This document shows positions 42,900 to 54,739 of a DNA stretch of 64,000 nucleotides, piece by piece. The notes below the pieces were generated by a model. That model was not told the origin of the DNA, made no database searches, and was given only the letters and a program-made list of their open reading frames with translations. The position numbers and the translations under genes were made by a program. The DNA comes from a virus. The DNA lies in the IMG/VR virus record IMGVR_UViG_3300025141_010453, positions 30,013 to 94,012 of that record; one strand, given 5' to 3'. Numbering within the stretch: position 1 is the first letter of the stretch; every line of letters starts with the position of its first letter.

Positions 42900-43646
42900 T
42901 TAAATAGTAGAAACATTTTCTTCTAATGTAAGATTTTTATCTATAAGGTAATTTCTAACGTCATTTAATTTTTTTAAGTACTCATTTCGACGTAAAAACT
43001 TAAATGTAAGGTTTTCATAAGAATATTCACCTTTATCTTCTAAACCACTTCCTCTATATTTTTTCATCTTGTTTTTAAACTTTTCAATGTTCTTTAAAAC
43101 AGCGTCAGGGTCTTCTCTTTTTGCGTCTACTTCGAACCGGTCTATTTGGTTCATCCAGTTTTTAGCTTTACTAAGAATTTTTTTAGAATCTATATGTACT
43201 TCTTCTTTATTCGGTTCTACAATCCATTCATTATATAGAACAGAGTATACCCCACTTGCAAAATGCTCTTCACTATTATCTTGCACATAAATTTCTACAT
43301 CAAATCCTTTAACAGTGATAGCCCTCAAAGAATTCCAAATCATTCTTCTACTATCTAAATACTTTTTTAATAAGGGGTCGGATTGGGAGTCAAAATCCAT
43401 TAAGATGTGTAAATCAGCGTCTGAGAATTGAGACCAGTTGAAATTTGATAGTGAACCAGTTAAAGTAACATCATCTATATCAAGTTCTATATCTACAAAC
43501 TCTATATAATTTTCAACAATGCCCAATAAAGAAATCCTGACCTCTGGCTTCATTTTATAGTTTTCACCATCTGAATACCAAATATCAGGATTAAGTTCTT
43601 CTTGCACCTTAAAACTACTAATAATATTTTTGTTAGAACTTTCCAT
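42900..43646 (-). CDS. Nucleotidyltransferase-fold protein
   Basis: A 248-residue protein. VTLTGSLSNFNWSQFSDADL gives the Pol-beta superfamily G-S plus D-x-D pattern, and KGFDVEIYVQD adds the third Asp-containing strand. Proteins of this type recur in T4-like marine phages without assigned function. It might transfer a nucleotide to RNA, DNA or protein. The acidic triad appears intact, so it is probably active. Confidence 0.72.
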   Translation of the reverse strand: MESSNKNIISSFKVQEELNPDIWYSDGENYKMKPEVRISLLGIVENYIEFVDIELDIDDVTLTGSLSNFNWSQFSDADLHILMDFDSQSDPLLKKYLDSRRMIWNSLRAITVKGFDVEIYVQDNSEEHFASGVYSVLYNEWIVEPNKEEVHIDSKKILSKAKNWMNQIDRFEVDAKREDPDAVLKNIEKFKNKMKKYRGSGLEDKGEYSYENLTFKFLRRNEYLKKLNDVRNYLIDKNLTLEENVSTI

Positions 43647-43672: not shown

Positions 43673-43918
43673 CTATGACATCTTTTTATATTTATAGTTC
43701 TTGGATATATTTTTAGAAAAGTAGGACCCTTGGCTTTCTGCCATTCTCATTTTAGTAAAAATACTAATCGGTACTTTTTCATAAGAATATTTTCCTCCCT
43801 TTTTAAATTCAACCATTAACTCACTAGTTTGTGTATTATATTCTGAACGCTTTAAATTTGAGGAGTTGTACTCATTTATAATAAGTTTTCCTACAATCTT
43901 TTCTTTCTTAATACCCAT
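43673..43918 (-). CDS. KTSC-domain small protein
   Basis: An 81-residue protein. YNSSNLKRSEYNTQTSELM, KYSYEKVPISIFTKM and ESQGSYFSKNI match the KTSC domain (S-N-x-x-x-x-x-Y, Y-x-Y-x-x-V-P, G-x-Y-F-x-x-x-I). This is a small domain with unknown function, often next to nucleic-acid enzymes or in phages. It is translated directly after the glutaredoxin-like gene. Confidence 0.8.
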   Translation of the reverse strand: MGIKKEKIVGKLIINEYNSSNLKRSEYNTQTSELMVEFKKGGKYSYEKVPISIFTKMRMAESQGSYFSKNISKNYKYKKMS

Positions 43919-44421: not shown

Positions 44422-46287
44422 TTACTTTACTTCTTCAAATTCAACATCTGTTGCTTCATTTGAGTTATCCTGAACTGGTTCTTCTGTTTCAGTCTCTTCG
44501 TATAATTTTGTACTGATTTCTTGCCAAGTACTATTAAGTTTCTCGGTTAATTCTTCTACCCCATCCATATCTTCTGACTCACAGACTTCCCTTAACTCTT
44601 TAATATTATTTTCTAATCTAGATTTATCATTATCATCTAGTTTATCACTCATATCCTTAATTTGTTTTTCGGTTTGGAACATTAAAGCGTCTGCTTTATT
44701 TAATTTCTCTACCTTTTCTTTTTTCTTATTGTCTTCTACTGAATTAGCTTCAGCTTCTTTTTTCATTCTATCGATTTCTTCGTCGGATAAACTACTCCCA
44801 GATTCAATTTTAATATTTTGTTGTTTTCCAGTACCCTTATCTAAAGCTTTAACATCAATAATACCATTTGCGTCAATATCAAACGTAACTTCAATCTGTG
44901 GAATTCCTCTTGGTGATGGTGGAATGTCTGTTAACTGAAATCTACCTAATGTTCTATTATCTCCAGCCATTGGTCTTTCTCCTTGTAAAACATGAATATC
45001 TACTGCTGGTTGATTATCTACTGCTGTAGAAAAAACTTGTGATTTAGAAGTAGGTATAGTCGTGTTTGAATCAATTAATTTTGTCATTACTGCTCCCATA
45101 GTTTCAATACCTAAAGAAAGTGGGGTAACGTCTAATAGTAAAACGTCAGTAACGTCTCCTACTAATACACCACCTTGTATTGCTGCTCCCATAGCTACAA
45201 CTTCATCTGGATTTACCCCTTTAGAGGGTTTTTTCTTGAATAGTTTTTCTACTGCTTGTTGTACTATTGGGATTCTCGTTGACCCACCAACTAATAATAT
45301 TTCGTCAATCTCGGTTACTTTTATTCCAGCGTCTTTAATAGCTTTTCTACATGGGGTTAAACTTTTCTTAACTAACTCTTCTACCATTGATTCAAATTTA
45401 GCTCTGGATAGTGTACGTACTAAATGTTTTGGCCCACTTTGGTCTGCTGTAATATAAGGTAAATTTATCTCTGTTGTAGTAGAATTTGAGAGTTCTACTT
45501 TTGCTTTTTCTGCTGATTCTCTTAGTCTTTGTAACGCTGCTGGGTCTTTACTTAAGTCCATACCTTGTTCAGACTTGAATTCTTCAACTAACCAATCAAT
45601 AATTTTCTCATCAAAGTTATCACCACCTAGATGGGTATCACCATTTGTTGATTTAACTTCGAAAACCCCATCACCCAATTCTAATATAGATATATCAAAT
45701 GTACCACCACCTAAGTCATAAACTGCGACAGTCATATCTTTATTTTTCTTATCCATTCCATATGCTAACGCTGCGGCTGTGGGTTCATTAATTATCCTAA
45801 GTACTTTTAGTCCCGCAATTTCTCCAGCTTCTTTTGTAGCCTTTCTTTGTTCGTCATTAAAATATGCTGGAACGGTTATTACAGCTTCCGTTACTTTTGT
45901 TCCTAAATAATCTTCTGCTGTTTTTTTAAGATTTTGTAAAACTACTGCAGAAATTTCTTGTGGAACATATGAGTTATCTCCAACTTTGATTGTGACGATA
46001 TCTTTAGCTCCCTTACTAATACTGTAAGACATTTTTTTAGCTTCCTTACTTATCTCACTAAATTTACTACCTATAAATCTTTTTACAGAATAAATGGTAT
46101 TTTTAGGGTTACTTACCGCTTGTCGTTTTGCTGGGTCACCAACCATTCTATCTCCATTTTTATAGGATACTACAGAAGGGGTGGTTCTTTTACCTTCTGA
46201 ATTAACAATTATTTCGGGAGACCCCGCTTCAACCACCGAAACACACGAATTTGTTGTTCCTAAATCAATTCCAATTACTTTTGTCAT
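44422..46287 (-). CDS. dnaK: Hsp70 chaperone DnaK
   Basis: A 621-residue, full-length Hsp70. [15 protein letters not shown] is the first ATP-binding signature, [15 protein letters not shown] the second, and [16 protein letters not shown] the third. The substrate-binding domain starts near [15 protein letters not shown], and the tail ends [10 protein letters not shown], the co-chaperone-binding style of bacterial DnaK. Complete DnaK is rare on phage genomes. No DnaJ or GrpE is seen here, so it would use host partners. It is transcribed divergently from the ClpC-like gene. Confidence 0.97.
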
Positions 46288-46467: not shown

Positions 46468-48507
46468 ATGATAGATTTTAGTGCAGATTCAGAAATGGAT
46501 GAAATAAGTGGTCGTAAAGAACCACAGAAACGCCCACCTAGTGAAAGTGGGACCCCTATATTAGATAATTTCTCAAGAGACCTAACTCATTTAGCGTCCT
46601 TAGGTGAATTGGACCCTGTAGTAGGGCGCGATGATGAAGTTAAAAGAATTGTTCAGATATTGGCGAGACGTAAAAAAAATAACCCTGTTTTAATTGGGGA
46701 AGCTGGAGCAGGAAAAACATCAGTAGTCGAAATGTTGGCTACAATGATACATACAGGTGAATGTCCAAGAAAACTTTTAAATAAAAGAATTGTGTTATTA
46801 GAATTATCATCTCTTGTTGCTGGTACCAAATATAGAGGTCAGTTTGAAGAGAGGATGAAAGCAATTATAGATGAATTAAGAGAAAATAAAGATGTTATTA
46901 TTTTTATTGATGAGATTCATACTGTTGTTGGTACTGGAAATTCATCAGGAAATTTAGATGCTGCAAATATCTTTAAACCGCCTTTATCCAGAGGAGAGCT
47001 TCAATGTATTGGTGCCACGACTTTAGATGAATATAGAGAAAAGATTGAGCGAGATGGTGCTTTAGAAAGGCGTTTTCAAAAAGTTACTATTGATGCTCCT
47101 TCATTAGAGGAGACTATAAAAATTCTTAATAGTATAAAATACGTTTATGAGGACCATCATAATGTAATCTATAGTGAAGAATGTATAGAATTATGTGTTA
47201 AATTAGCAGATAGATATATAAATGATAGAGCGTTTCCAGATAAAGCTATAGATGTTATGGATGAGGTGGGGTCAATGGTACAAATAGATATTAAAACACC
47301 AAAATATATAGAAACTCTCAAAAATGATATAAATTCTTTAAAACAAGAAAAAATTTCAGTGGTTAAAAGTCAAAATTATGAGAAAGCAGCAGATTTAAGA
47401 GATGATGAACGTAAATTAACTAAAAAATTAGAAGATTTAACAAAAAAGTGGGACCGCAAACAATCACTCAATAAAATTGAGGTGACTGTGGATAATGTCA
47501 TGTATGTAGTTTCTAAAATCACTAAAATCCCCTTAAGTAGGATGAATCAAAACCAAAAAAAGAATTTATTAAATTTAGATAAGCATTTAAAGAAATCTGT
47601 AATAGGACAAGACGAAGCAATAAACACTATAGTAAAATCAATTAGAAGAAATTCAGTAGGAATTAAAGAATTAAATAAACCTATCGGGTCATTTATTTGT
47701 TTAGGCCCTACTGGTGTAGGAAAAACCCACCTAGCTAAAAAACTAGCAGAACTTATGTTTGGGTCAGAAGAATCTATGATTAGAGTAGATATGTCGGAAT
47801 ATCAAGAAAAACATTCTGTGTCTAGACTAATTGGTTCCCCTCCAGGTTATGTTGGATATAATGAAGGTGGGCAATTTACTGAAAAAGTAAGGCAAAACCC
47901 ATATTCTTTAATTCTTTTTGATGAGATAGAAAAAGGTCATCGTGATATATTTAATATTCTTTTACAAATTCTAGATGATGGTTATGTGACCGATGCATCT
48001 GGAAGAAAAATTAATTTTAAAAATACTTTAATTATGATGACTTCAAATATTGGGGTTAGAAATGCTCAGGATTTTAGTAATGGTTTAGGGTTTACTACTA
48101 AAGCTTCCCAACGAACGGATAAAGAAAGGGTTAGAAGTATAATTTCAAAATCTTTAAAAAACACTTTTAACCCAGAATTTCTAAATAGACTAGATGACAT
48201 CATTATTTTTGAGCCATTAGATAAAGTTGGCATTAAGAAAATCGTAAAAATAGAGTTATCTCACCTAACCGCTAGATTGACGGAAAAAGGTTACACTATT
48301 AAATTTGGTCCCTCTGTTGTAGGCCATATTTGTGTTATTGGTCATGATGATAAGTTTGGTGCTCGTCCACTTAAAAGGGCCATACAATCAGAAGTAGAAG
48401 ATTTTATTGCCGCACAAATACTTAAAAATACAATTAAAGAAAATAACTCTTATACATTGAGTTATAATAAAAATACTGAAAAATTTAAACTAATTGAGAA
48501 ACAATAG
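46468..48507 (+). CDS. ClpC/ClpA-like double-AAA+ unfoldase without N-domain
   Basis: A 679-residue Hsp100. LIGEAGAGKTSVV (Walker A1, 77-84) and FICLGPTGVGKTHLA (Walker A2, 413-420) mark two AAA+ domains. LASLGELDPVVGRDDEVKRI is the usual start of the first domain. EKISVVKSQNYEKAADLRD is a UVR-type middle segment as in ClpC. The substrate-binding N-domain is missing and replaced by a short polar leader. NGLGFTT sits where ClpP-docking LGF/IGF loops occur, so it may bind host ClpP. It could remodel virion or host proteins together with DnaK. Confidence 0.9.
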   Translation: MIDFSADSEMDEISGRKEPQKRPPSESGTPILDNFSRDLTHLASLGELDPVVGRDDEVKRIVQILARRKKNNPVLIGEAGAGKTSVVEMLATMIHTGECPRKLLNKRIVLLELSSLVAGTKYRGQFEERMKAIIDELRENKDVIIFIDEIHTVVGTGNSSGNLDAANIFKPPLSRGELQCIGATTLDEYREKIERDGALERRFQKVTIDAPSLEETIKILNSIKYVYEDHHNVIYSEECIELCVKLADRYINDRAFPDKAIDVMDEVGSMVQIDIKTPKYIETLKNDINSLKQEKISVVKSQNYEKAADLRDDERKLTKKLEDLTKKWDRKQSLNKIEVTVDNVMYVVSKITKIPLSRMNQNQKKNLLNLDKHLKKSVIGQDEAINTIVKSIRRNSVGIKELNKPIGSFICLGPTGVGKTHLAKKLAELMFGSEESMIRVDMSEYQEKHSVSRLIGSPPGYVGYNEGGQFTEKVRQNPYSLILFDEIEKGHRDIFNILLQILDDGYVTDASGRKINFKNTLIMMTSNIGVRNAQDFSNGLGFTTKASQRTDKERVRSIISKSLKNTFNPEFLNRLDDIIIFEPLDKVGIKKIVKIELSHLTARLTEKGYTIKFGPSVVGHICVIGHDDKFGARPLKRAIQSEVEDFIAAQILKNTIKENNSYTLSYNKNTEKFKLIEKQ

Positions 48508-49672: not shown

Positions 49673-50275
49673 ATGGAAGGATACATTTACTTAGGAGAAC
49701 ATTATGATGTTCTTAATCGAGAAATAGGCATTTCGGATAAAAAAATAGGATTGTCTATAGACCCTATTAATAGAGAAATTTCCTTAACTAAAACTAAATC
49801 CCCTATTAGATATAGAATTGTATCTGCATATAAAGTAGATGACATGCGTCGTGTTGAAAAAATGTTGCACAGTATATTAGATAGTAGACGAGTATTTGGT
49901 GAGTGGTTTAGAGATGATGACGATACTTTAGAAGGGGACTTTATTAATTTTATGAATGCCTATGGTGGAGAAGTTTATAATATACAAGAAGTTAAAGAAG
50001 AAAATGCTTTATTAAAAGAAGATATGAGATTATTAGAAGTTGTTAAAAAACATGGTGCTCCACTTAATCTAGTAAGAAAATATCTGGGTATAGAATATGA
50101 TGTTTTATTGGATAAGAATGGTCTTCTACATTTTAATGGTGATGTTTTTAATACCCCTAATAAACTTTATAACAATGGTATTGTCTTTCATGTTAAAAAG
50201 AAACGAGGTGGAAGTGGCACCAATAACTTATCTCAATTTAAAATCAAAGAAACAGGCGAAAGATTATTTGATTAA
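49673..50275 (+). CDS. GIY-YIG/T5orf172-like domain protein
   Basis: A 200-residue protein. YIYLGEHY...KIGLSIDPINREISL, RYRIVSAYKVDDMRRVEKML, HSILDSRRVFGEWFRDDDD match the order of the T5orf172/MUG113 branch of GIY-YIG nucleases (K-I-G-x-S-x-x-P-x-x-R, E-x-x-x-H-x-x-x-x-x-x-R-x-x-G-E-W-F). The C-terminal 90 residues (KKRGGSGTNNLSQFKI) look DNA-binding. It is expressed from its own host-type promoter, so it is probably early. Nuclease activity is likely but untested. Confidence 0.72.
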   Translation: MEGYIYLGEHYDVLNREIGISDKKIGLSIDPINREISLTKTKSPIRYRIVSAYKVDDMRRVEKMLHSILDSRRVFGEWFRDDDDTLEGDFINFMNAYGGEVYNIQEVKEENALLKEDMRLLEVVKKHGAPLNLVRKYLGIEYDVLLDKNGLLHFNGDVFNTPNKLYNNGIVFHVKKKRGGSGTNNLSQFKIKETGERLFD

Positions 50276-50311: not shown

Positions 50312-50812
50312 ATGAATTTAGAAAAAACACGAAATATAGCAATTAAACTAATGAGACAACACGGTCTTATTACGTATACATTTAAGTGGGATAGAGCTGT
50401 AAGAAGGTTTGGCTCCCATAATGGACGAATGCAAACTATTTCCCTTTCTAGACCTTTAACTCTCCACGAAACTAACAAATGTAGAGTTAAAAATACTATT
50501 TTACATGAAATAGCACATGCTTTAGACCATCAACAACGTGGTTATTCTAATCACGATGCTAACTGGAAAAGAATTGCACGGTCTATCGGGTGTAGTGGTG
50601 AAAGATGTAGTAGTAGTTCAGGTGTAGATAAGTCTAAAATATTAAAATGGGTAGCTACCTGTCCTAGTTGTGAAAGAAAAGTTTACTACGCAAGACAAAA
50701 AGCAAAAGATGTAGCTTGTGGTAAATGTTGTAAAAAACATAATAATAGCAAGTATGCCCCTGAGTATAAATTTAATTGGAAATTAAATAGGTGTGTCGTA
50801 AAATATATATAA
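50312..50812 (+). CDS. SprT-like zinc metallopeptidase
   Basis: A 166-residue protein. LHEIAHALDHQQRGYSNHDANW gives H65-E66-x2-H69 and a following His in the usual S-N-H-D-x-x-W context. A zinc ribbon follows (CPSC and CGKC pairs near residues 114-137). SprT-like proteins (the Spartan family) cleave DNA-protein crosslinks; phage versions may clear proteins from replicating DNA. It is translated into the next gene through a TAATG overlap. Confidence 0.88.
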   Translation: MNLEKTRNIAIKLMRQHGLITYTFKWDRAVRRFGSHNGRMQTISLSRPLTLHETNKCRVKNTILHEIAHALDHQQRGYSNHDANWKRIARSIGCSGERCSSSSGVDKSKILKWVATCPSCERKVYYARQKAKDVACGKCCKKHNNSKYAPEYKFNWKLNRCVVKYI

Positions 50813-51343: not shown

Positions 51344-52150
51344 GTGAAAGAAAAATTAAAAGAATTATTATCAATACCTACCAGGACTTGGGAAGAAGAT
51401 AGAGTTATTTCCTATTTAATAGAACAATTTGAATTAAAGGGATATAAATATGATATTGATGACTTGGGTAATCTTTATGTTACTAAAGGTATTTCTGATT
51501 ATTATCCTTTAGTTTTAGCTCACACAGATAGTGTGCATGAGATTAAAGAAATGGTTGTAAAGGAAGAATATTTACCTAATGCACAAGGTGAAAATAAATT
51601 AGCACTTAAAGCTTATACTAAAGATGGTAATCTACCTACGGGTATCGGAGGTGATGATAAAGCAGGGGTTTTTATTTGTTTACAATTACTAGAAAAATTT
51701 AATACACTTAAAGCCTTTTTTCCTGTAGCAGAAGAAACTGGTTGTCATGGAAGTAGAGATGCTAAAGAAGAATTTTTTAAAGATGTTGGTTATGCCATTC
51801 AATTTGACTCAACTGAAAATGATACCATGTCTCTTTCACTTATGGGCACTCAATTGTTTGAGGAGAAATCTGAATTTTTTAATAAAACTAAAAATATAAT
51901 TTTAGAACATGGTTTTACCGAGTGGAGACATCATCCGTATACTGATAATATGGTCCTTAAGGAAAAATTTGATTTTGCTTGTTTAAATTTTGCTGCTGGT
52001 TACTATAGGTACCATACTGATAATGAATATGTGATAGTGGAAGATGTAAAAAATTCTATAAATCTAGGGAAAAATGTAATAAAAAAATTAGGTAATTCTT
52101 TTTATAAATTTAAGGCAACTAAAAAAGATTCTTTTGGGTGGTTTGATTAG
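51344..52150 (+). CDS. M20-family metallopeptidase-like protein
   Basis: A 268-residue protein starting at GTG. PLVLAHTDSVHEI (first His/Asp ligands), GIGGDDKAGVF (bridging Asp), FPVAEETGCHGSRDA (catalytic Glu-Glu) and YRYHTDNEYV (last His) are the M20/PepT-type metal and catalytic residues in order. It is shorter than cellular M20 enzymes (about 400) and probably lacks the dimerisation lid. A peptide- or amide-hydrolase role is likely. Such peptidases are unusual in phages. Confidence 0.8.
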   Translation: MKEKLKELLSIPTRTWEEDRVISYLIEQFELKGYKYDIDDLGNLYVTKGISDYYPLVLAHTDSVHEIKEMVVKEEYLPNAQGENKLALKAYTKDGNLPTGIGGDDKAGVFICLQLLEKFNTLKAFFPVAEETGCHGSRDAKEEFFKDVGYAIQFDSTENDTMSLSLMGTQLFEEKSEFFNKTKNIILEHGFTEWRHHPYTDNMVLKEKFDFACLNFAAGYYRYHTDNEYVIVEDVKNSINLGKNVIKKLGNSFYKFKATKKDSFGWFD

Positions 52151-52810: not shown

Positions 52811-53011
52811 ATGCCAAAATCCAAAAATAGAAAAAATCATAAGAAAAAAGTTCAAGCACGTAATATGAGAATTCGAGCAGAACAAAAACAAATGGTACAA
52901 CAACTTGATGACCTAAAAGAAAAATACACCAAAGAAATGGCTGATAAAGCTAAAGAATCTTCTGAAGAAGATAGTGGTGATGTACCTTTTACTTTGGGTG
53001 GTGATAAGTAA
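52811..53011 (+). CDS. Small basic-to-acidic protein upstream of tmRNA
   Basis: A 66-residue protein. The first 30 residues are basic (PKSKNRKNHKKKVQARNMRI) and the rest acidic and helical. Not recognised; possibly a nucleic-acid-binding regulator. The tmRNA begins 7 nt after its stop codon, so both probably come from one transcript. Confidence 0.7.
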   Translation: MPKSKNRKNHKKKVQARNMRIRAEQKQMVQQLDDLKEKYTKEMADKAKESSEEDSGDVPFTLGGDK

Positions 53012-53017
53012 TAATAT

Positions 53018-53428
53018 GGGGGTGACTGGAATTGATTGGCGTTGGTCAATTAATGTCAGCACGTCGAGCCTGAGTTAAGCTCGTAAAATCTGATTCATTT
53101 TTTTAACTGGCAAAACAATTGCTAAGTTGACGACTTTAGGGCTTGTCCGTGAAACGTCAACTGTAGCTATAGCGTAACTAAGTTACGAGATAGCTCCGGT
53201 TCAACTAAAGTAGATTTAAGGTTTGTAGCTTTAGTATAGAACTGTCATTTTATACAAACCAATCCCACTAGTACTGCTTGGGTGGTTAAATACAAGGTAG
53301 TTGAGGTTTCTCTGAGTGTTGTTTATTTTGTAAGAGTTACTTAAGATGTTAAGAATAAACTAAACGTGTAGGATAGATATTTTTTGAAGATGAACAAGAC
53401 GGGGGTTCGATACCCCCCACCTCCACCA
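53018..53428 (+). ncRNA. ssrA: Transfer-messenger RNA (tmRNA), complete
   Basis: A 411-nt gene. The 5' GGGGGTG (53018-53024) pairs with CACCTCC (53418-53424) with the G3-U wobble that marks alanine charging, and ACCA is encoded at the 3' end. The T-arm GGGGG-TTCGATA-CCCCC is at 53401-53417. CGAGC/GCTCG (53065-53083) followed by GTAAAA is the PK1 region, as in other tmRNAs. The block AAACTAAACGTGTAGGA near the 3' end is typical of Bacteroidetes. TTTTTTTAACT precedes GGC (53109), the resume codon by homology. Stems at 53125-53162, 53165-53195 and about 53197-53267 fit PK2-PK4. The reading frame of the tag is odd (see findings). Confidence 0.95.
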
Positions 53429-53434
53429 AAAGAG

Positions 53435-53456
53435 AAAAGGACCAAAAGGTCCTTTT
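53435..53456. terminator. Bidirectional intrinsic terminator after tmRNA
   Basis: AAAAGGACC (53435-53443), AAAA loop, GGTCCTTTT (53448-53456), followed by more T. On the minus strand it also ends the operon 59221 to 53459, since it begins next to that gene's stop. Confidence 0.92.
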
Positions 53457-53458
53457 TT

Positions 53459-54739
53459 TTATTTTAATAGTTTCACTAAACCTATGGGTTCTTCTTTAAG
53501 GATATTTATTAGTCCAACTTTTTCTTCGTTTACTGATACTTTTGCTATTTTCCCGTCTACAACTGTGTATTTTATTATATTCATGTCGTCTTTAAGAGCC
53601 TTATTAGTTCTCGCCTCGTCTTCAGGGTATAATAGTGGTGTACCTATTTCAAATTGTAATCTGTAGTTTAGTGTAGATGTTGATGTGTGGTTTTTCAATT
53701 CAGTAATGCCGTCAGTTTCTCCGTTCCTATCAGTTCCATGATATATACTAAATTGTCCTATTATTTCAGATGCGGGATTAAATATAGTTACTCTTTGGAA
53801 TGGGAAGGTATCGTCTTTATCATCATTTTTAGTTTTAAGTTCTGCAACTGCAAGAGCTTTTGCAAAATCGTCCACCAGTTCAGATGGCCAAACACCTGTG
53901 GTGTAAACCCCCTTAGCACTTTTTAGAAATAAGAATCCGTTGCGTTTTTCTATAATCTTCTTGTTTATCGTTTCTATTACTTGTTTGGTGGCAGCAGAAA
54001 TAGATTCAAAGTGACCAGCAGGTAAACTACCATCATTTTTATACTTAATAACTTCATATGGAGCGTCTATTGAATATGGGGCATCGTCTGGGTAACACCC
54101 AAACTTATTATTACAAAAATTATAGTCATTTTTTAAATCAACTCGTATTGAGTACTCACAAGATATCTCTTTAATACCTGTAGGAGGTTTATCGTCAACA
54201 CACTCTCCTAGATTTTTTTTACACCAATAATTGTCGGCCGTAGGGTCTAAACATCCATATATTTCTTCTGGTTCGTCTACTACCTGGTTATTGTTACTAG
54301 GGGTATAACATTGACAACTTCTATTACTCCAGGCCCTAGGTGATACACATGCATCGAATTCCGCTTTTAAGGCTGGGTCAAAAGAAGGGGAGGTATCGTC
54401 TAGTCTTTCAGCACAGGTTGCAGCTTTTAAATATTTACACACATATTTATCCGCTTGAATTAATGCATTTTTTGCATCCTTTGTTGCTTTGTTATCCCAA
54501 TCATTTATGGATGCAGCATCTATATTATGGAAGGCTTTTAGATACCCACATATCTGGGCGTCAGTTAAAAGGGCGGCGAAAGGCTCATCAATTGTACTTA
54601 AAAGCTTACCATTTACTTTTACTCCACTAGGTTCATACACATATGATGCATTATGTGTAAGATTATACTCATACATCGCGATGCCGTCACACTTATCGTT
54701 AGGGTGAACCCCTCTATTTCCACAAGGTAGTAATGCCAT
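53459..54739 (-). CDS. Cys-rich virion-associated protein with GC-DPxAxNY motif
   Basis: A 426-residue protein. IYGCLDPTADNYWCKKNLGE resembles the YGCTDPxAxNYxPxAxxDDGSC repeat of Bacteroidetes surface and secreted proteins; one copy is seen, with divergent spacing. About 17 Cys residues suggest disulfides or metal sites. No signal peptide. It is the last gene of a four-gene minus-strand late operon and could be part of a fibre or an injected protein. Confidence 0.55.
   Translation of the reverse strand: MALLPCGNRGVHPNDKCDGIAMYEYNLTHNASYVYEPSGVKVNGKLLSTIDEPFAALLTDAQICGYLKAFHNIDAASINDWDNKATKDAKNALIQADKYVCKYLKAATCAERLDDTSPSFDPALKAEFDACVSPRAWSNRSCQCYTPSNNNQVVDEPEEIYGCLDPTADNYWCKKNLGECVDDKPPTGIKEISCEYSIRVDLKNDYNFCNNKFGCYPDDAPYSIDAPYEVIKYKNDGSLPAGHFESISAATKQVIETINKKIIEKRNGFLFLKSAKGVYTTGVWPSELVDDFAKALAVAELKTKNDDKDDTFPFQRVTIFNPASEIIGQFSIYHGTDRNGETDGITELKNHTSTSTLNYRLQFEIGTPLLYPEDEARTNKALKDDMNIIKYTVVDGKIAKVSVNEEKVGLINILKEEPIGLVKLLK

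Follow-up and report, generated by a model that had tools for sequence, protein, structure and literature searches.

A long, conserved tag frame in a phage tmRNA linked to a phage-encoded Clp unfoldase

The role of phage tmRNAs is an open question, and one such gene raises it in an unusual form. The gene lies in a 64-kb window of viral DNA (bases 30013–94012 of a 94,012-base virus record; positions below are those of the window) and its tag reading frame is 22 codons long. The first-pass annotation regarded the frame as abnormal and suggested that tagged proteins could meet a fate other than ClpXP degradation. Is the frame real, is its product maintained as a peptide and, if so, what becomes of the proteins that carry it?

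A one-piece tmRNA resuming at GGC

ARAGORN and the Rfam model RF00023 agree on a one-piece tmRNA on the forward strand (Table 1). The RF00023 match scores 108.6 bits (cut-off 47; E 1.7e-41), spans model positions 1–374 and thus the full length of the model, and is the only one in the whole virus record. The RNA has the G3–U70 pair, an encoded CCA and a T-arm, and it is followed by an intrinsic terminator; the earlier description of a phage tmRNA with these parts is thereby upheld. In a blastn comparison of the gene with phages and plasmids, the T-arm end alone was matched. A lysine-rich open reading frame of 66 aa (52811–53011, +), with homologues in two close relatives, ends six bases upstream, and the two may share a transcript from which the tmRNA is processed. 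In the relatives L104, L105 and L106, a small tRNA cluster (Leu-TAA, Arg-TCT, Ile-TAT) adjoins the tmRNA.

Relatives were collected by two routes. We searched viral contigs for homologues of the window's Clp ATPase and ran RF00023 on the records in which they lie; separately, viral contigs were searched with a DNA pattern that represents codons 1–12 of the tag. After duplicate removal, the sample consisted of 105 distinct tmRNA sequences from viral contigs; these share ancestry, and the conservation counts given below are not counts of independent events. The G3–U70 alanyl acceptor is present in 96 of the 105, the listed exceptions being sequences with trimmed ends.

Table 1. Features of the tmRNA locus, in window coordinates
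Feature	Position	Strand	Evidence
DnaK homologue, full, divergent from the adjoining Clp gene	44422–46287	-	NF001413, 988 bits (cut-off 648)
ClpC/ClpA-type AAA+ unfoldase without N-domain, 679 aa, ClpP-docking loop LGF	46468–48507	+	PDB, Pfam
SprT-like metallopeptidase	50312–50812	+	Pfam PF10263; in 9/81 neighbourhoods, close relatives only
M42/M28-like peptidase	51344–52150	+	phrog_4191, 2.6e-35; weak Pfam matches below cut-off
One-piece tmRNA (ssrA), CCA encoded, G3–U70 acceptor	53018–53428	+	RF00023 and ARAGORN
Pseudoknot PK1: stem 1 53065–53069/53079–53083; stem 2 53071–53077/53091–53097	53065–53097	+	Pairing search
A at –4 of the resume codon, counterpart of E. coli A86	53105	+	A in 105/105 relatives
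Tag reading frame GKTIAKLTTLGLVRETSTVAIA, GGC resume codon to TAA	53109–53177	+	Same frame in 105/105 relatives
Extra hairpin in the tag frame, 8-bp outer stem 53125–53132/53155–53162	53125–53162	+	Fold
Helix 5 with 3' end of the tag frame and stop codon, canonical position	53163–53197	+	Rfam alignment, fold
Intrinsic terminator	53431–53460	+	3' of the tmRNA

The open frame starts at GGC 53109, runs for 22 codons to the stop TAA at 53175 and closes within helix 5. The RF00023 alignment places this GGC at the resume position, and around it all 105 relatives have an A at –4, a pyrimidine at –5 and a G at +1. In E. coli tmRNA, A86 is the main determinant of the frame and the change U85C is tolerated (PMC2481249); given this role and the conservation at –5, –4 and +1, we regard the tag frame as settled. 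The resume codon, frame and stop codon first proposed thus agree with both the covariance model and the relatives, and the two short alternative frames (AKQLLS and WQNNC) are present exactly as had been described.

A resume codon elsewhere is the least probable of the alternatives that we considered. For the window, ARAGORN prints a start at GCU 53121 with the tag AKLTTLGLVRETSTVAIA, and a shifted start appears in some relatives as well; against this, ARAGORN itself prints the GGC start and the long tag for L108–L112 and L115, the Rfam alignment has GGC in the place of the resume codon, and the –4 A and +1 G are kept in all relatives. On these grounds the GCU start was ruled out, and the shorter tag printed for the window is a prediction error. 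Many of these phage tmRNAs (L104–L122 and L300–L302) were missed or mis-started by ARAGORN and found by RF00023, and surveys of phage tmRNAs based on ARAGORN therefore probably undercount.

Conservation of the tag and a hairpin within its frame

The length of the tag is nearly constant, 21 codons in 90 and 22 codons in 15 of the 105 tmRNAs, with no premature stop among the 54 distinct tags. A tag of roughly double the ordinary length, as noted at first for the window, is therefore found in all of these relatives, and an abnormal frame in the sense of a broken one is not supported: the frame belongs to a conserved family of 21- to 22-aa tags that always end in Ala. A frameshifting sequencing error, which had been raised as a possible source of the unusual frame, is excluded because this frame is maintained, uninterrupted, in 105 distinct relatives.

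The pattern of conservation points to the peptide. Gly11 is present in all 105 tags, encoded by four different codons, and the last Ala likewise in all 105, through three codons; Leu12 is found in 103, Lys6 in 97 and Arg14 in 87. The residues before the final Ala are mostly V or A, with K or E directly preceding it in a few tags. The pN/pS of the tag is 0.45 in frame and rises to 0.78 and 1.52 when the frame is shifted. Among the 80 loci picked on codons 1–12, the second half, which was free of selection by the search pattern, has codon 21 as its last and a C-terminal Ala in every case. The codon evidence rules out RNA structure as the sole cause of frame conservation, the structure being constrained too, and on these comparisons we consider the tag to be conserved as protein. 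With its Ala end after mostly V/A residues, it resembles a proteolysis tag.

Relative to the RF00023 model, 36 nt of the tag frame form an insertion, and this part is predicted to fold as the hairpin adjoining helix 5. The first-pass annotation had taken its stem for the first pseudoknot, an assignment that we rejected since both the Rfam alignment and the pairing search put PK1 upstream of the resume codon. In that search, PK1 scored at least 20 in 94% of the 105 relatives versus 22% of shuffles, and its stem 1 is made of 19 different pairs among the relatives. Synonymous recodings served as the reference for the stability of the hairpin segment. When they followed the codon usage of the window, the window's own tag segment had a z of about –5.6 and the tag segment was more stable than its recodings in 67 of 67 distinct frames (mean z –2.9), whereas ordinary coding segments, used as a control, gave a z of –0.2; when the codon usage of the tags themselves was applied, the mean z was still –1.9. 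As the stem does not keep one register across the relatives, our claim is for a selected hairpin and not for one homologous helix. Judged by these comparisons, the tag frame is dual, encoding both a conserved peptide and an RNA hairpin.

We then considered a bacterial origin of the tag. Scanned with a strict tag pattern, 84,980 bacterial and archaeal species genomes gave no exact match; a looser pattern gave seven hits, all of them in ordinary frames without a tmRNA and attributable to chance; together the two patterns cover most, though not all, of the observed tags. The tags of Bacteroidota tmRNAs are nearly all 9–10 aa long and end in LAA or MAA (GESNYAMAA, GEYNYALAA, ANDYSYAMAA, DNNYSYRLAA), a couple of those printed being apparent ARAGORN misreadings. 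With no similar tag in the two pattern scans or the Bacteroidota tmRNAs, a host-derived tag was rejected, and the tag appears not to be bacterial as far as this is testable. A tblastn search of isolate phages returned nothing, which for so short a query is weak evidence. A different long tag occurs in another huge phage: in L137 (LR756508.1, a 484-kb uncultured phage), positions 1501–1947 contain a tmRNA with a 36-codon GGC frame, GVNNADYESAGF...KPAAV.

The Clp neighbourhood and the fate of tagged proteins

Matches of the capsid, portal and terminase identify the phage as T4-like, and its capsid is nearest to those of Microcystis, Flavobacterium and Rhodothermus phages. The host is likely, not proven, to belong to Bacteroidota. 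The phage ClpP matched two Bacteroidota genomes with E-values of 1e-57 and 2e-56 and five genomes of other phyla with 3e-48 at best, although by identity alone the two groups hardly differ; for the moraphages, with which DnaK and an ATPase of the ClpA type are shared, Bacteroidota hosts have been predicted (PMC12619734).

A few kilobases upstream of the tmRNA, the window contains a gene for a Clp ATPase. The protein matches ClpC in the PDB (3j3s) with an E-value of 3e-211 and has two AAA+ modules, with Pfam matches to AAA_2 and ClpB_D2-small; the cut-offs of the NCBIfam equivalog models were not reached. The alignment runs from ClpC residue 156 on, leaving no N-domain, and we therefore call the protein ClpC-like rather than ClpC. 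The 80 Clp sequences compared retain Walker motifs, pore loops and arginine fingers, and all 80 have the ClpP-docking loop [ILV]GF. The linkage with the tmRNA was seen from both sides. Among the 60 Clp loci that had either a tmRNA or at least 5 kb of downstream sequence, 56 have the tmRNA 2–10 kb downstream on the same strand, and one of the remaining four, L011, has an RF00023 match just beyond the stretch examined; conversely, the Clp ATPase is present in 46 of 50 contigs chosen by the tag pattern. This linkage could be explained by collinear inheritance within one phage lineage, which is the main weakness of the argument.

A ClpP gene was found in 21 of 26 large contigs of relatives (E about 1e-57), and the triad Ser127/His152/Asp201 is present in the five sequences read. 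Searches for it found none in the window's own 94,012-base record, possibly a fragment, or in the closest large relative, whose contig is possibly incomplete. No SmpB was found in the 26 large phage records, and host SmpB would consequently have to work with this tmRNA.

Other genes of the neighbourhood differ in their constancy. A homologue of the M42/M28-like peptidase is found in 71 of 81 Clp neighbourhoods, in varying orientation, and DnaK in 22. Genes for a KTSC-domain protein (43673–43918, –) and for an unknown protein of 248 aa (42900–43646, –) lie near Clp in 76 of 81 relatives, a constancy no lower than that of the peptidase. Between the Clp gene and the tmRNA, a T5orf172/MUG113-type gene (49673–50275, +), a weak homing endonuclease match, is shared with two of 81 relatives.

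The comparisons establish the tag frame, its length and conservation, its absence from the searched bacteria, the hairpin and the Clp linkage, and from them we infer tag-directed degradation. In the model that we favor, and that we hold to be reasonably probable, the gene encodes a working one-piece phage tmRNA whose putative private degron feeds a phage Clp protease, with SmpB borrowed from the host. Host SmpB and host alanyl-tRNA synthetase would load the tmRNA, which would enter stalled ribosomes, resume at GGC 53109 and add Ala and the 22-residue tag. Recognition of the tag would fall to the phage's ClpC-type unfoldase, which lacks the N-domain and would dock on a ClpP that is phage-encoded in most large contigs and otherwise supplied by the host. 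In this way the machinery of the phage would degrade truncated proteins arising from mRNA destruction during infection, and ribosomes, possibly amino acids too, would be freed. The in-frame hairpin presumably holds the lengthened mRNA-like segment in a folded state until translation reaches it.

A part of the evidence can be read differently. The RNA might be an ordinary acquired tmRNA serving rescue only, its tag degraded by host ClpXP and its length irrelevant. Rescue needs just release, phage tmRNAs with ordinary tags do exist, as in Lak phages, and a tag end of hydrophobic residues and Ala is compatible with host ClpX; we nevertheless consider this unlikely, given a tag interior strongly conserved over deep divergence, unlike that of any bacterial tag found, and the link of the tag to a phage Clp gene. 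Still less probable is a functional tag that is no degron and marks proteins for localization, stabilization or regulation. The conserved interior and an ending other than LAA would suit such a role, but the C-terminal Ala in 105 of 105 tags, the canonical position in helix 5 and the co-occurrence with a Clp unfoldase and ClpP argue against it. We find it very improbable that the RNA is a decoy titrating SmpB or host tmRNA function, with the frame conserved through RNA structure. The DS6A form with only the tRNA-like part provides a precedent (PMC11915505; PMC4131195) and the frame region does fold as a selected hairpin; a decoy, however, needs neither the intact frame, resume determinant and stop found in all 105 relatives nor constraint at the level of amino acids.

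With the Clp gene a few kilobases upstream of the tmRNA and ClpP in most large contigs, degradation is the more likely fate of the tagged proteins, and a Clp machine of the phage itself, in place of host ClpXP, may carry it out. The first reading of the locus was thus sound on a phage tmRNA with a long tag starting from GGC; its use of the tag ending as an argument against degradation fell away with the abnormal frame, the Ala end and the Clp genes leaving a different fate unsupported. That a widespread lineage of large aquatic phages operates a private degradation pathway by trans-translation, with its own tmRNA degron of 21–22 residues in a dual-coded frame, its own unfoldase and its own ClpP, is an extension that we offer tentatively. 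The conservation of the tag far exceeds the needs of rescue and a phage Clp gene is linked to it, which makes the function of the tag testable by a reporter fusion and two purified proteins; the tag family in this sense gives a testable answer to the question of what phage tmRNAs do. If the model is true, a virus would own an orthogonal channel of protein degradation, a possible source of a new degron–protease pair.

Comparison with known tmRNAs and Clp proteases

Phage tmRNAs have been described in the mycobacteriophages Bxz1, Wildcat and DS6A, Bacillus phage G, the OM43 phage Melnitz and the Prevotella Lak phages. The Melnitz tmRNA differs from ours in being two-piece and alphaproteobacterial-like (PMC9004378), that of DS6A in consisting of the tRNA-like part only, and that of the Lak phage, which shares DnaK with the window's phage, in its ordinary 10-aa tag DDEIDFRMAA. 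Phage ClpA, ClpX and ClpP (PMC7824862) and the ClpA-type gene of moraphages have likewise been published. In a literature covered mostly without subscription journals, we found no published description of the tag family, its dual coding or the phage Clp link.

Moraphages are large aquatic phages of Bacteroidota, and they share with the window's phage a T4-like core, a ClpA-type ATP-binding subunit and a putative peptidase, both in their shared gene set, and in some cases DnaK (PMC12619734); the text of that paper makes no mention of a tmRNA. Judged by the shared gene content and the text of the paper, the window's phage and its relatives are probably the same or a sister lineage.

The one-piece bacterial tmRNA of RF00023 and the phage RNA have in common the acceptor, PK1, resume determinant, helix 5 with the stop codon, T-arm and CCA. 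The phage RNA differs in a tag of 21–22 codons versus usually 10 (PMC11915505), in the extra hairpin within the tag frame and in a tag sequence that the bacterial searches did not find. The tmRNAs of Bacteroidota hosts share the one-piece form and often a Gly resume codon, whereas their short LAA- or MAA-ending tags are without the GL[IVT]RE interior. Compared with the ClpC/ClpA–ClpP protease, the phage proteins have the same two AAA+ modules with intact motifs, the [ILV]GF loop and the ClpP triad, and the phage ATPase differs in having no N-terminal adaptor-binding domain.
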